A stretch of 64,000 nucleotides of DNA from Marinomonas sargassi (GTDB taxonomy: Bacteria; Pseudomonadota; Gammaproteobacteria; Pseudomonadales; Marinomonadaceae): positions 186,001 through 250,000 of the forward strand of contig NZ_JAOVZB010000002.1 in the NCBI RefSeq assembly GCF_025716875.1. Reading direction: 5' to 3'. Below are positions 37,263 to 42,434 of this stretch, piece after piece. Below the pieces are notes generated by a model that worked only from the letters and a program-made list of their open reading frames with translations, was not told where the DNA came from and ran no database searches. A program made the position numbers and the translations under genes. The stretch's first letter is position 1, and the number at the start of each line of letters is the position of its first letter.

Positions 37263-37946
37263 TTAGATGAGTCCTGCCTTGACTATTTCAGACATAATTT
37301 CATCCACAACGCCTTCAATCGTTAAATCCGTACTATCGATCACTAAAGCACCTGCGGCAGGCACCAATGGCGCTACTGGCCTATTGGCATCTCGCTCATC
37401 GCGCTCTTTTATCGTAGCAACCAATTCTTCTAGATCGACCGTGTCGCCTTTTTGCTGCAATTGCTGAAAACGTCGTTGCGCACGCTCTTCAGCAGACGCG
37501 GTTAAAAACACCTTAACTTGAGCCGCTGGAAACACCACTGTACCCATGTCGCGACCATCCGCCACCAAACCAGGCATCTGTGAAAACGCTCTTTGACGAA
37601 CTAACAAACCTTCTCGAACTTCAGGAATAGCCGCTAACTTAGAAGCAAAGTTACCGACCTCTTCTGTTCTCAATGCTTGAGTCACGGTTTCCCCTTCAAG
37701 GATGATGTCAATTTTCCCTTCTGGAGTTTGTTCAAACTGAATATCCAAATGCTCAGCTAACACCTTTAATGTTTCAGCATCTTCAAAAGACATACCGTGA
37801 TGAGTAACAGCCAGTGCTAGTAAGCGATATAAAGCACCACTATCAAGAATGTGCCACCCCAGCTTATCCGCAACTAATTGACTTACCGTCCCTTTACCCG
37901 CGCCACTCGGGCCATCAATAGTTATTACTGGGCCTTGATTGATCAT
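37263..37946 (-). CDS. cmk: Cytidylate kinase
   Basis: Phosphorylates CMP and dCMP. The 227-residue protein has the P-loop [11 protein letters not shown], the CMP-binding region LDSGALYR and [13 protein letters not shown], and the lid [11 protein letters not shown]. The ATG at 37944-37946 follows AGAGG at 8 nt. A longer frame of 12 codons reaches into the tyrA-aroA gene and is less likely. Order aroA-cmk-rpsA is conserved. Confidence 0.96.
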
Positions 37947-37963
37947 AGTTAATCCTCTTAAAA

Positions 37964-40186
37964 CTACTGAGCCACTAGACAACGAAAACCTAATTGCCTA
38001 GCAACACTCTCCAATTCATTAAATTCTTCTAATAATTTTTGACAGTCATTTACTTTTATAACGGATTGAGATCTTGCCCCTAACGCCAACAAAGCAAGAG
38101 CGAGCTTATCGTCACCCGCACAATCCAACTCACCGCCACTCGGCACCCCACCCTGAACGGAAAGCTCACCATTCGAGTAAGAGCACTTAATATTCATTTG
38201 CTCTAGCGCCTCTACCACTGCCAACACTCTATCTTCATGATGATAAGGCAAAGCATTCAGACCTTTTAACTGACTCTCACCCATTGCATAGGCGGCAGCA
38301 ACGCAAAGTAAAGGCAGCTCATCCCTAAATTGATAACTCTGCTCTGCCGTTAAAGAGAAGCCTTTAAACTCAGCAAATCCTGCTTCAACTCGCCCCCCAT
38401 ATATACCCAGCTCATTTTTAGCAGGGAGCGCTAAGTTGCCACCGATCGACTGTAAAAATGACATAAAGTCATAGGACACTGAATCAAGACCTACATTAGC
38501 AATCATCAACTCAGAGCCCGGTAAAAGGTTTGCTAACAAAACTAACCAAGAGGACGCATACTCATCACCAGACAGCAGCATATCTTTTGCAACTAGAGGG
38601 CCCGATGACACAGTAAAGCCATCGCTAGCCAAATCTACTTTCGCCGAAAAATATCGCAACAGCACTTCACAATGAGACACACCACCGAATAGTGGAACAA
38701 CATTCCCCATTGTTGGTGCATACAAAGAGGCAAGAAAAGCCGCCATTCGTAAAGGCTCGGAGCCACTTTCTAAACGTATCGATATATCTTTAGGTTCACT
38801 TGGTGATAGAGAAATAGGCAAACAATCCCCTACTTCAGAGCGCACTTCGCCCCCCATTTCACGTACCAGAGCTAACAACTCATTCATTGGCACATTCAGC
38901 AGGTTATCTTCCGCAATAACCGTCACAGAAAATGACTGACCAGCGAGCACGGGCAATAACAAATACAAACTCTCTCGGGAGGTGTGTACATTAATCGGCC
39001 CAATAGGCGCTTTTAACCCGCGCAAACCGACACCATGTACACGCAATTGATTCTCAGCCAGAGCTTCAATCACCACACCCATATCGCGCAAAGCCTGAAT
39101 GGTCACTTTGACATCAGAACCTAGGTTGATATTACGAAGGTTACTCACCCCTTCAGAAAGCGCAGCTATGGTAATCACTTTATGTGACAGAAATTTGTCG
39201 CCCAATAAAGAAATTCCACCCTGCACTGCTGAGGCAGGCAACAGAGAAACAGAAACAGGCTTCACTTCTTTTTCCGCAACACCAGTACGAGACTCTAACA
39301 GCCTCAGGAAATGATCTCGGGCAGATTTAGCACGGGTAAAGACCCCAAACATGCTTGCCCCATCTCCTGATTCTATGGCCTTACGCATATCAGCCAGTCG
39401 ATCGGTAAAATGATCTAACGTTTCTAATGTGGCTTCTTTATTCGCAAGAAATACATCTCGCCACATGACAGGGTCACTGGACGCAATGCGGGTAAAGTCC
39501 CTAAAACCACCTGCTGCAAACTTAAATATATCTTGATTCCGCTCACCATTCGCCAAAGCATCCACCAAGGTGTAAGCCAGCAAATGGGGTAAATGACTAG
39601 AAGACGCGAGCACATGGTCATGATGCTCCACATCCATACTCACTACATCCGCCCCAACAGCACGCCATAGGCGATGTAATCGATCAAGCAACACAGGGTT
39701 ACTATCAACCAGCGGCGTAACGATCGCCATATGCTTTTCAAATAAATGTGGGTTAGCCGCCAAGACGCCACTTTTTTCAGCCCCTGCAATAGGATGACCA
39801 GGAATAAAGTTCTTTGGCACATGGCCAAACACTTGTTGAGCAGCAGCAACCACACTACCTTTTGTCGAGCCGACATCGGTCACCAAGGTAGTACTGGATA
39901 GGAAAGGTTTTAGTTCCGAGAGGACTAATGCCATTGCTCTCACAGGGGTAGCAAGAACAATAACATCCATTTTACCTACGGTTTCTGCATTTAACTCTGC
40001 AGCAAAATCAATAACTCCAGTAGAGACACCTAGCGTAAGCTCGCCTTGGCGCCTATCTACACCGTATAAAGTTGCTAAACCTTTAAGCTTTAACGCTTTG
40101 GCAAAAGAACCACCAATCATGCCAAGACCAACGATCATGACATTACCAAATTGATTTTTTTCTTGCGATACGGTTGTTGCAGTCAC
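37964..40186 (-). CDS. tyrA: Prephenate dehydrogenase fused to a degenerate EPSP-synthase-like domain
   Basis: Residues about 14-300 form a complete prephenate dehydrogenase: NAD(P) motif GLGMIGGS (20-27), [13 protein letters not shown] (128-140) and [10 protein letters not shown] (197-205). Residues about 310-740 align in order with EPSP synthase, as in the Pseudomonas TyrA-AroA fusion, but most substrate-binding residues are altered. GDKSxSHR has become GDKFLSHK, the NAGT site reads HTSR, and SAQ is SEP. KES is HHE and DHR is DDK. Only the first Lys and Asp622 are plainly kept. The tyrosine-pathway half should work; the AroA half is probably not an active synthase. The gene lies between pheA and cmk. 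Confidence 0.92.
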
Positions 40187-40222
40187 AAACAGCTACTCTT
40201 TAAAAATTGAAACAAGGCAAAA

Positions 40223-41347
40223 TTACAATACAGCGATAGGGTATGAACCAAGCACCTTCACTTCCGATGCTCTCTCGCACAACTCATTTATAACTGCTGC
40301 ACTTTGCTCATCTGAGTGATGTCCCAAGAAGTCTATATAGAAAATATAACCCCAGCGACTCATGAGAGATGGCCTTGTTTCTAGGCGAGTCATATCTACC
40401 TTGTGGCGCTCAAAAGCTTCCAGCAAGCGATACAATGCACCAGGCTCATTTTTCGCACTTACCAATAGAGACGTTTTATCTTTACCACTCGCTGGCACTT
40501 CTTGATTACCAACAATTAAGAATCGAGTGGTATTATCAGGGTGATCCTCAATATTGGCAGATAGCGTTATAAGGCCATATAGCTCACACGCCACATCACC
40601 CGCAATAGCAGCCACTGCACGACCACTGCGACCTGCATCAGCCGCTAGTCGAGCCGCTTCCGCATTTGAGCTTACTGCCACTCTTTCAACATGTGGCCAG
40701 TAGCGATCTAGCCAAGCGCGACATTGAGCCAACGACTGTTGATGAGAATAAATATGGGTAACATCGTCCGCATTAATATTTGGGCTAACAAGCAGATGAT
40801 GATGAATTCTTTCTTCAACTTCACCACAGATTTTTAAGCGCGAATCTCTAAAGGTATCCAGTGTGTGATTAACAACACCTTCCGTAGAGTTCTCAACGGG
40901 CACAACACCATAATTTGCCGCCCCAGACTCCACTTCACGGAACACTTCATCAATTGCCGCCATAGGCGCACTAATCACAGACTTACCAAAGTGCTTAATT
41001 GCCGCCTGCTGAGTAAAAGTCCCTTCAGGTCCTAAAAAGGCAATACGCATTGGTTTTTCAAGCGCTAAGCATGAAGACATGACCTGACGAAAAATCTTCG
41101 CCATCTCTTCGTTACCAAGTGGCCCTTCGTTACGCTCCATAACGCGGCGCAATACTTGCGCTTCACGCTCTGGACGATAAAACACAACCGCTTCATCGCC
41201 TTGTTCAGCCAACTTCACATCGGCTACTTTTTGAGCACATCTGGCACGCTCGTTAATGAGGCTTTGTATTTGAGAATCTATAGAATCGATACGGTCTCTT
41301 AGTAAAGGCAACGTATCTGGCACTGACTGCTTATTAGAGTTCGACAT
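40223..41347 (-). CDS. pheA: Bifunctional chorismate mutase / prephenate dehydratase (P-protein)
   Basis: Makes phenylpyruvate from chorismate in two steps. The 374-residue protein has an AroQ-type mutase domain (about 14-95; LRDRIDSIDSQIQSLINERARCAQ), a prephenate dehydratase domain (about 97-275; FLGPEGTFTQQAA, ENSTEGVVNHTLD, NTTRFLIV) and a C-terminal ACT domain (about 288-372; SLLVSAKNEPGALYRLLEAF) for phenylalanine feedback. No leader-peptide attenuator was evident. It lies between serC and tyrA-aroA. Confidence 0.97.
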   Translation of the reverse strand: MSNSNKQSVPDTLPLLRDRIDSIDSQIQSLINERARCAQKVADVKLAEQGDEAVVFYRPEREAQVLRRVMERNEGPLGNEEMAKIFRQVMSSCLALEKPMRIAFLGPEGTFTQQAAIKHFGKSVISAPMAAIDEVFREVESGAANYGVVPVENSTEGVVNHTLDTFRDSRLKICGEVEERIHHHLLVSPNINADDVTHIYSHQQSLAQCRAWLDRYWPHVERVAVSSNAEAARLAADAGRSGRAVAAIAGDVACELYGLITLSANIEDHPDNTTRFLIVGNQEVPASGKDKTSLLVSAKNEPGALYRLLEAFERHKVDMTRLETRPSLMSRWGYIFYIDFLGHHSDEQSAAVINELCERASEVKVLGSYPIAVL

Positions 41348-41354
41348 CTTTTTA

Positions 41355-42434
41355 TTACCCGTGACGCTTTTCGAAGGCGCTCATAAAATCAATTAAAGCT
41401 AAAACACCTTCCATTGGCATTGCATTATAAATACTGGCTCTCATGCCACCAACCGAGCGGTGACCGGCTAAAGTGCGTAAGCCTGCCGCTTCAGACTCTT
41501 CAAGGAATAAAGACTCCAGAGACTTATCCGCCAATGTAAAAGGCACATTCATACGAGACCTATAGGCAGGTTCAATAGGGTTAGCATAAAAATCACTTGA
41601 ATCAATAAAGTCATATAACGCTTTGGCTTTTTGAATATTGACCGCTTCCATTGCATCAACACCACCTTGCTCTTCTAGCCATTCAAAAACCAGATCAGCC
41701 AAGTAAATAGCAAATGTTGGCGGTGTATTGATCATGGAATCATTAGCAGCGAGGTTTGCAAAACTCCACGTAGAAGGAAGATTGTCACCACTACGAGCCA
41801 ACAGGTCTTTACGAATGATGCAGATCACTACGCCAGCAGGGCCAACGTTTTTCTGGGCACCAGCGTAAATCATGCCGTATTGAGAAACATCAATCTTTCT
41901 TGAAAGAATGGTCGAAGACAGATCGGCAACGATTGGCAAATCTGTTTTAGGCAACCCTGAGAACTCCACACCACCAATAGTTTCATTTGGGCAGATATGC
42001 AAATAAGCCGCACTTTCATCTAGAGGCAAAGTATCTAGGTTTGGTACTGTGATGTAATTAACATCTTTCGATGAGCCTACCAGGTTCACATCAAGGTATT
42101 TCTTCGCCTCTTTAATTGCCTTTGTTGACCAAACACCAGTATCAAGATAACAAGCAGAATCATAGCCATTCGCCAAGTTGGCTGGAATTTGAGAAAACAG
42201 AGTCGACGCGCCACCTTGAGCAAACAAGATTTCATAATCGTCATTAATATTGAGTAATCGAGCCAAGCGCGCTTTTGCAGAAGCCAATATAGACATAAAC
42301 TCAGTACTACGGTGACTCATTTCCATTACAGAAACACCAGTACCATGCCAATCTAACATTTCCGCTTGCGCTTTTTTCAACACAGCTTCAGGAAGCGCTG
42401 CTGGACCAGAACAAAAATTATATACTCGGCTCAT
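41355..42434 (-). CDS. serC: Phosphoserine aminotransferase
   Basis: PLP enzyme for serine synthesis, also used in vitamin B6 synthesis. The 359-residue protein begins with the typical FCSGPAALPEAVL, has the PLP lysine in YAGAQKNVGPAG and the ending GHRSVGGMRASIYNAM. It ends 8 nt before the pheA start. The pdxJ product in this window uses material derived from the same SerC-dependent route. Confidence 0.97.
   Translation of the reverse strand: MSRVYNFCSGPAALPEAVLKKAQAEMLDWHGTGVSVMEMSHRSTEFMSILASAKARLARLLNINDDYEILFAQGGASTLFSQIPANLANGYDSACYLDTGVWSTKAIKEAKKYLDVNLVGSSKDVNYITVPNLDTLPLDESAAYLHICPNETIGGVEFSGLPKTDLPIVADLSSTILSRKIDVSQYGMIYAGAQKNVGPAGVVICIIRKDLLARSGDNLPSTWSFANLAANDSMINTPPTFAIYLADLVFEWLEEQGGVDAMEAVNIQKAKALYDFIDSSDFYANPIEPAYRSRMNVPFTLADKSLESLFLEESEAAGLRTLAGHRSVGGMRASIYNAMPMEGVLALIDFMSAFEKRHG

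Follow-up and report, generated by a model that had tools for sequence, protein, structure and literature searches.

What becomes of an enzyme domain within a fused protein when another gene takes over its reaction? This question is raised by a tyrA-aroA gene of the gammaproteobacterium Marinomonas sargassi, in which TyrA is joined to an EPSP-synthase (AroA) half with most of the expected substrate and catalytic residues replaced. The gene lies in a stretch of 64,000 nucleotides (contig NZ_JAOVZB010000002.1 of assembly GCF_025716875.1, positions 186,001 to 250,000, forward strand). We call this whole stretch the window and give all coordinates of the locus in it.

The fused gene and its EPSP-synthase half

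Positions 37964-40186 of the minus strand form a single open reading frame of 740 codons (740 amino acids) with a GTG start and zero internal stops; the initial annotation was right in calling the frame intact. The gene, its parts and its neighbours are listed below.

37964..40186, minus strand: fused tyrA-aroA coding sequence, 740 aa, GTG start, stop codon included
39293..40186, minus strand: TyrA half, residues 1-298 (PF02153 and PF20463; genome search)
39254..39292, minus strand: inter-domain linker, residues 299-311 (AlphaFold2 pLDDT < 50 at residues 299-305)
37967..39253, minus strand: EPSP-synthase domain, almost certainly inactive, residues 312-740 (PF00275; predicted fold; 4 of 18 active-site positions)
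37263..37946, minus strand: cmk (cytidylate kinase), downstream neighbour; start taken at the ATG at 37946, no overlap with the fused gene
40223..41347, minus strand: aroQ-pheA, upstream neighbour (conserved gene order)

We take the two neighbours to be cmk and aroQ-pheA on the basis of established knowledge. The cmk start is located 17 bases past the stop codon of the fused gene. A search of the window against Rfam gave zero matches. The hisC gene (hisHb), which is adjacent to tyrA in several relatives (e.g. L066-L069), is missing from the cluster: no histidinol-phosphate/aromatic aminotransferase is present between pheA and tyrA within 37263-42434 of the window. The gene order here is gyrA-serC-pheA-tyrA.aroA-cmk-rpsA, and this order was described as the ancestral gamma-proteobacterial supraoperon (Song et al. 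2005, PMC1173090).

Residues 27-181 and 186-281 of the TyrA half match the prephenate dehydrogenase domains PF02153 and PF20463 (NAD-binding and dimerisation) with 118.8 and 96.3 bits, respectively, over the Pfam cut-offs, and the conserved catalytic region is present. The predicted fold of this half is close to that of TyrA 4wji (Foldseek, TM 0.91 of the target), and the genome search detected no clear TyrA besides the fused gene. Judging by these domain matches, the TyrA half is an intact prephenate dehydrogenase.

The C-terminal half was initially annotated as a homolog of the fused EPSP synthase, and this holds: residues 318-717 match the EPSP_synthase family (PF00275, 130 bits, E 1.2e-37), which is not a similarity expected by chance. 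Together with homologous open frames in 48 of 48 genomes of the Marinomonas clade, this E-value rules out a chance similarity or misread frame, as well as a sequencing error in a single genome. The sequence evidence indicates that the domain is a descendant of the class II EPSP synthase, as found fused to TyrA in pseudomonad relatives. However, the protein scores below both curated cut-offs, with 151 bits against 287 for the TIGR01356 aroA equivalog and 878.4 bits against 902 for the bifunctional TyrA-AroA model NF011381. The latter is nevertheless its top NCBIfam match, so an annotation by best match would misassign EPSP-synthase activity to this protein.

The active site was assessed in an alignment of the domain with 20 unfused class II EPSP synthases and with 60 fused proteins from this order that are intact. 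We scored 18 positions that we take to be substrate-binding or catalytic from what is established about the structures of the E. coli and CP4 EPSP synthases: K, S and R of GDKSxSHR; NSGT; R of RPM; SAQ; D of IDE; K, E and R of KESDR; and HR of DHR. All 60 intact fused proteins and 19 of the 20 unfused ones have the ancestral residue at 18 of 18 positions. The window protein retains four, and the other 47 Marinomonas proteins retain from three to eight; thus the residues that define a working class II EPSP synthase are mostly absent. R408, R508, K649, E650 and H693 are found in none of the 48 Marinomonas proteins. K331 is retained in 46 and R653 in 47 of the 48. The altered motifs are as follows.

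39179..39202, minus strand: GDKFLSHK (ancestral GDKSISHR); K331 kept, S332F, R336K
38972..38986, minus strand: HTSRE, residues 401-405 (ancestral GNSGT substrate loop, lost; from the alignment)
38885..38893, minus strand: VPM, residues 432-434 (ancestral RPM, R432 lost; from the alignment)
38753..38764, minus strand: GSEP, residues 475-478 (ancestral ASAQ, A477 and Q478 lost; from the alignment)
38228..38242, minus strand: HHEDR, residues 649-653 (ancestral KESDR); K649 and E650 lost in 48 of 48, R653 kept in 47 of 48, new E651 in 48 of 48
38105..38113, minus strand: DDK, residues 692-694 (ancestral DHR); H693 lost in 48 of 48

The initial annotation had named these replacements, and the alignment bears out GDKFLSHK for GDKSISHR, VPM for RPM, SEP for SAQ, HHE for KES and DDK for DHR. 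It was one residue off at NAGT (NSGT in this family), which corresponds to TSRE at 402-405 and not to HTSR. The active-site positions have not been lost preferentially (4 of 18 retained against 60 of 157 other EPSP-synthase-invariant positions, p 0.21), so a large share of the decay seems to be general relaxation.

Structure prediction indicates that the fold is preserved, as had been proposed. AlphaFold2 gave pLDDT 90 and pTM 0.76 with an alignment of 50 fused relatives (with low confidence at linker residues 299-305), and pLDDT 91.6 and pTM 0.90 with 11 inactive sequences only. The predicted domain resembles class II EPSP synthases with TM about 0.83-0.93, including about 0.9 for the Acinetobacter enzyme (Foldseek), so that predicted fold and sequence (PF00275) both place it by descent among class II EPSP synthases. 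As AlphaFold2 knows the EPSP-synthase fold, these models are weak proof of it. A predicted fold that is kept while catalytic residues are lost is what one would expect of a pseudoenzyme.

A class I AroA and the fates of the fused domain

If the fused domain is inactive, the genome should encode another AroA, and finding one had been set beforehand as a test of the initial annotation. The genome search detected a separate class I AroA (G000:C7:47388-48614, 482 bits) with intact motifs, which rules out a genome lacking any other AroA; the same genome also encodes MurA. No difference occurs in the nine EPSP-synthase motifs among the 46 Marinomonas class I AroA proteins that we examined. The class I AroA scores over the cut-off in 47 of 48 genomes of the Marinomonas clade, and the lone exception is a genome that is 77% complete. 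In one genome (G011) the class I aroA (G011:C45:84070-85298) is split into two frames, by either a frame break or an assembly error. As the fused domain of G011 is dead too, a real break would be expected to leave this strain dependent on aromatic amino acids.

The fused domain might in principle still be an active EPSP synthase with unusual residues, given its predicted fold and its top match to the bifunctional enzyme. This is hardly credible: K649, E650, H693, R408 and R508 are absent in all 48 Marinomonas proteins, the scores fall under both curated cut-offs, and an intact class I AroA is present. From the aligned residues, EPSP-synthase catalysis has almost certainly been lost in the fused domain.

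The decayed state is genus-wide and old. In all 48 genomes of the Marinomonas clade the fused frame is open over 731-772 codons without a nonsense mutation, and the aroA half scores 129-203 bits against the TIGR01356 cut-off of 287. We extended the survey to 126 sampled genomes of the order; class I AroA was called at a score of at least 460 bits, which by our reading gives 21 genomes. The carriers of class I AroA differ in what has become of the fused domain:

intact, 18 of 18 active-site positions: G030 (L030), G138 (L067) and G100 (L070)
partly decayed, 14 of 18: G082 (L066), G092 (L068) and G145 (L069), in which HSAT or QSAT replaces NSGT
dead but of full length: Marinomonas
dead and shortened: G089 (L074) and G144 (L079), family f43, with proteins of 626 and 636 aa whose heavily decayed remnants retain one and three of the 18 positions
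deleted: eight genomes, with TyrA of about 295-337 aa

Among the 126 genomes of the order, every decayed fused domain seen was accompanied by a class I AroA. Since decayed domains occur only alongside class I AroA, it is probably the latter that made the fused domain redundant. The half-decayed domains of G082, G092 and G145 are intermediates suited to timing the loss of activity. In G107 (L073) the class I aroA adjoins a stand-alone tyrA, as if the class II gene had been replaced in place.

In the TyrA tree, Marinomonas joins the f6 genomes G092, G145, G168 and G028 (UFboot 100), followed by G138 (76). G089 and G144 are placed far from Marinomonas, and G082 and G112 are near Amphritea, which means that decay occurred more than once; that of G089 and G144 is an independent parallel case. 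For class I AroA, Marinomonas falls together with G138, G082 and G112 (support 99). The likely history is that class I AroA was gained, the fused domain became redundant, and its fate then differed between lineages. Neither the genus-wide state nor these multiple fates after the arrival of class I AroA had been noticed in the initial annotation, whose claims of a second AroA, of selection and of a predicted fold stand.

Constraint on the inactive domain and its possible role

Purifying selection on the domain, which had been suggested from the sequence of one gene, was confirmed by dN/dS. Among 55 close Marinomonas pairs, which share branches and so are not independent, the median NG86 omega is 0.049 for the TyrA half, 0.100 for the inactive domain and 0.022 for the class I AroA. 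A codon model for 16 species gave 0.031, 0.085 and 0.025, respectively. Values of 0.085-0.10 rule out a pseudogene under neutral decay and are those of a pseudoenzyme under purifying selection. In intact fused genes the EPSP-synthase half is the more constrained one (omega 0.087 against 0.129 for TyrA). Thus the constraint on the domain in Marinomonas has fallen relative to TyrA and is still strong. The domain also evolves faster, with a mean pair identity of 53% against 83% for TyrA. Constraint differs along the domain, with conservation at residues 328-417, 643-656 and 685-736 and near-drift at 463-600.

One could suppose that the frame is kept solely for the translation of cmk and rpsA downstream, or for their distance, as the conserved gyrA-serC-pheA-tyrA.aroA-cmk-rpsA order and the short interval before cmk might suggest. 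We regard this as very improbable, because selection acts on amino acids and not merely on the open frame, and because cmk still directly follows tyrA in sister lineages that deleted the domain.

Selection on a dead domain suggests that a former enzyme has been turned into a helper part. We consider it quite probable that selection maintains some non-catalytic role of the domain, and, with somewhat less assurance, that the domain serves TyrA as a structural or regulatory part, which is the specific reading with the best support. The step of the shikimate pathway would have passed to the class I AroA encoded at another locus. The Marinomonas fused domain would then have lost its substrate and catalytic residues while its fold and open frame stayed, and it would now be maintained as a part of TyrA. 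The regulatory or scaffolding role for the dehydrogenase proposed in the initial annotation fits these sequence data. Part of them would also be accounted for if misfolding of the fused TyrA were selected against, and folding constraint alone could hold omega below 1.

The chief rival to a role as a part of TyrA is selection for foldability alone, by which the domain would be a passive relic with no function of its own, kept since its misfolding would harm the attached TyrA. The domain is two to three times less constrained than TyrA, its middle stretch (463-600) varies almost freely, its active-site positions were not lost preferentially, and related lineages deleted it, so that TyrA as a family does not need it. 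However, it is kept at full length without a nonsense mutation in 48 of 48 genomes, even though sister lineages survive with the domain cleanly deleted. Folding alone also does not predict the newly fixed residues or their location near the old motifs. On balance we think a passive relic rather unlikely.

These residues come from 45 positions that are at least 90% conserved in Marinomonas and different or variable in intact proteins. Among them, new polar or special residues N352, R382, N399, P412, R621 and E651 are fixed at 96-100%. Measured by distance along the sequence, 20 of the 45 positions lie within five residues of an active-site position against about 11 expected (p 0.002, random draw), and none of 427 circular shifts gave as high a number.

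Ancestral residues, in turn, are concentrated elsewhere. Of the conserved ancestral positions, 14 of 22 are retained in residues 358-387 and 38 of 229 in the rest of the domain (p 5e-6), and the most retained stretch is a helix-strand of 11 residues:

39065..39097, minus strand: helix-strand, residues 364-374; Q364, D368 and V372 are typical of fused and not of unfused class II proteins

Together with P397, these three residues are near-invariant both in intact fused proteins and in the dead Marinomonas ones, and not in unfused EPSP synthases. Such a pattern would fit contact with TyrA; residues common to fused proteins only may also reflect shared ancestry rather than contact. If the domain is a part of TyrA, it would most likely pack on the dehydrogenase via the helix-strand of residues 358-387, and its former active-site cleft would have been rebuilt, perhaps as an effector pocket that still contains K331 and R653. 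We infer the contact with TyrA, the effect on TyrA and any ligand from these patterns.

Two more specific readings of the rebuilt cleft can be considered. The domain may have become a new allosteric module of tyrosine biosynthesis, in which the cleft binds a pathway metabolite and controls the dehydrogenase; we offer this as a tentative idea that is doubtful at present. Alternatively, the old cleft could bind or convert some other anionic metabolite in a role unrelated to TyrA regulation. The near-universal K331 and R653 and the clustering of newly fixed residues by the old motifs would agree with such a role. Yet the domain no longer has the general acid/base residues for enolpyruvyl transfer, and the residues at the old motifs differ between species, which makes such a role distinctly improbable.

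Significance and relation to known systems

The order provides a natural series for the decay and reuse of a redundant domain, with both enzymes intact, a half-decayed domain, a dead one that is kept, a shortened one and a deleted one, all in the presence of class I AroA. It makes testable whether a dead fusion domain becomes a regulator, as suggested earlier (Song et al. 2005, PMC1173090). Should the domain be an allosteric module, this would be a natural conversion of an enzyme domain into a sensor after gene replacement, with intermediates visible in relatives. For annotation, EPSP-synthase activity should not be assigned to Marinomonas TyrA-AroA proteins; the separate class I gene is the one on which to base predictions about this step, among them the herbicide response expected from the enzyme class. 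A literature search found no report of the Marinomonas case or of an EPSP-synthase pseudoenzyme; an earlier mention is possible.

The TyrA-AroA of Pseudomonas aeruginosa and P. stutzeri (NF011381; TyrA.AroF in Jensen's nomenclature) has the same domain order and neighbourhood, an intact TyrA half and a homologous full-length C-terminal half. In contrast to it, the EPSP-synthase half in M. sargassi lacks the active site and the scores are below the model cut-offs, and an unlinked class I AroA replaces it. The nearest solved relatives by sequence and predicted fold are the class II EPSP synthases of Coxiella (3roi/3slh), Acinetobacter (5buf) and Agrobacterium CP4 (2gg6), which retain the substrate and catalytic residues that the Marinomonas domain mostly lacks.

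The closest precedent is P. syringae, in which the EPSP-synthase (AroF) domain of the TyrA fusion was truncated after the gain of a free-standing EPSP-synthase gene, and the leftover part was suggested to have the potential to turn into a new regulatory domain (Song et al. 2005, PMC1173090). In both cases a fused EPSP-synthase domain was inactivated after such a gain. However, the P. syringae event is recent, is confined to one species and deleted about 200 residues, whereas the Marinomonas domain has decayed by substitution at full length in a whole genus. Unlike the former, the latter has measured purifying selection and newly fixed residues.

Dead enzymes that regulate an active relative are known from the trypanosome AdoMetDC prozyme (PMC5201418) and from a pseudoenzyme in eudicot indole synthesis (PMC12727527). 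As in Marinomonas, a dead relative of a metabolic enzyme is kept under selection there. In those systems the effect has been demonstrated, whereas in Marinomonas we infer it, and the Marinomonas dead part differs from both in being covalently attached to an enzyme of the same pathway to which it is not homologous.
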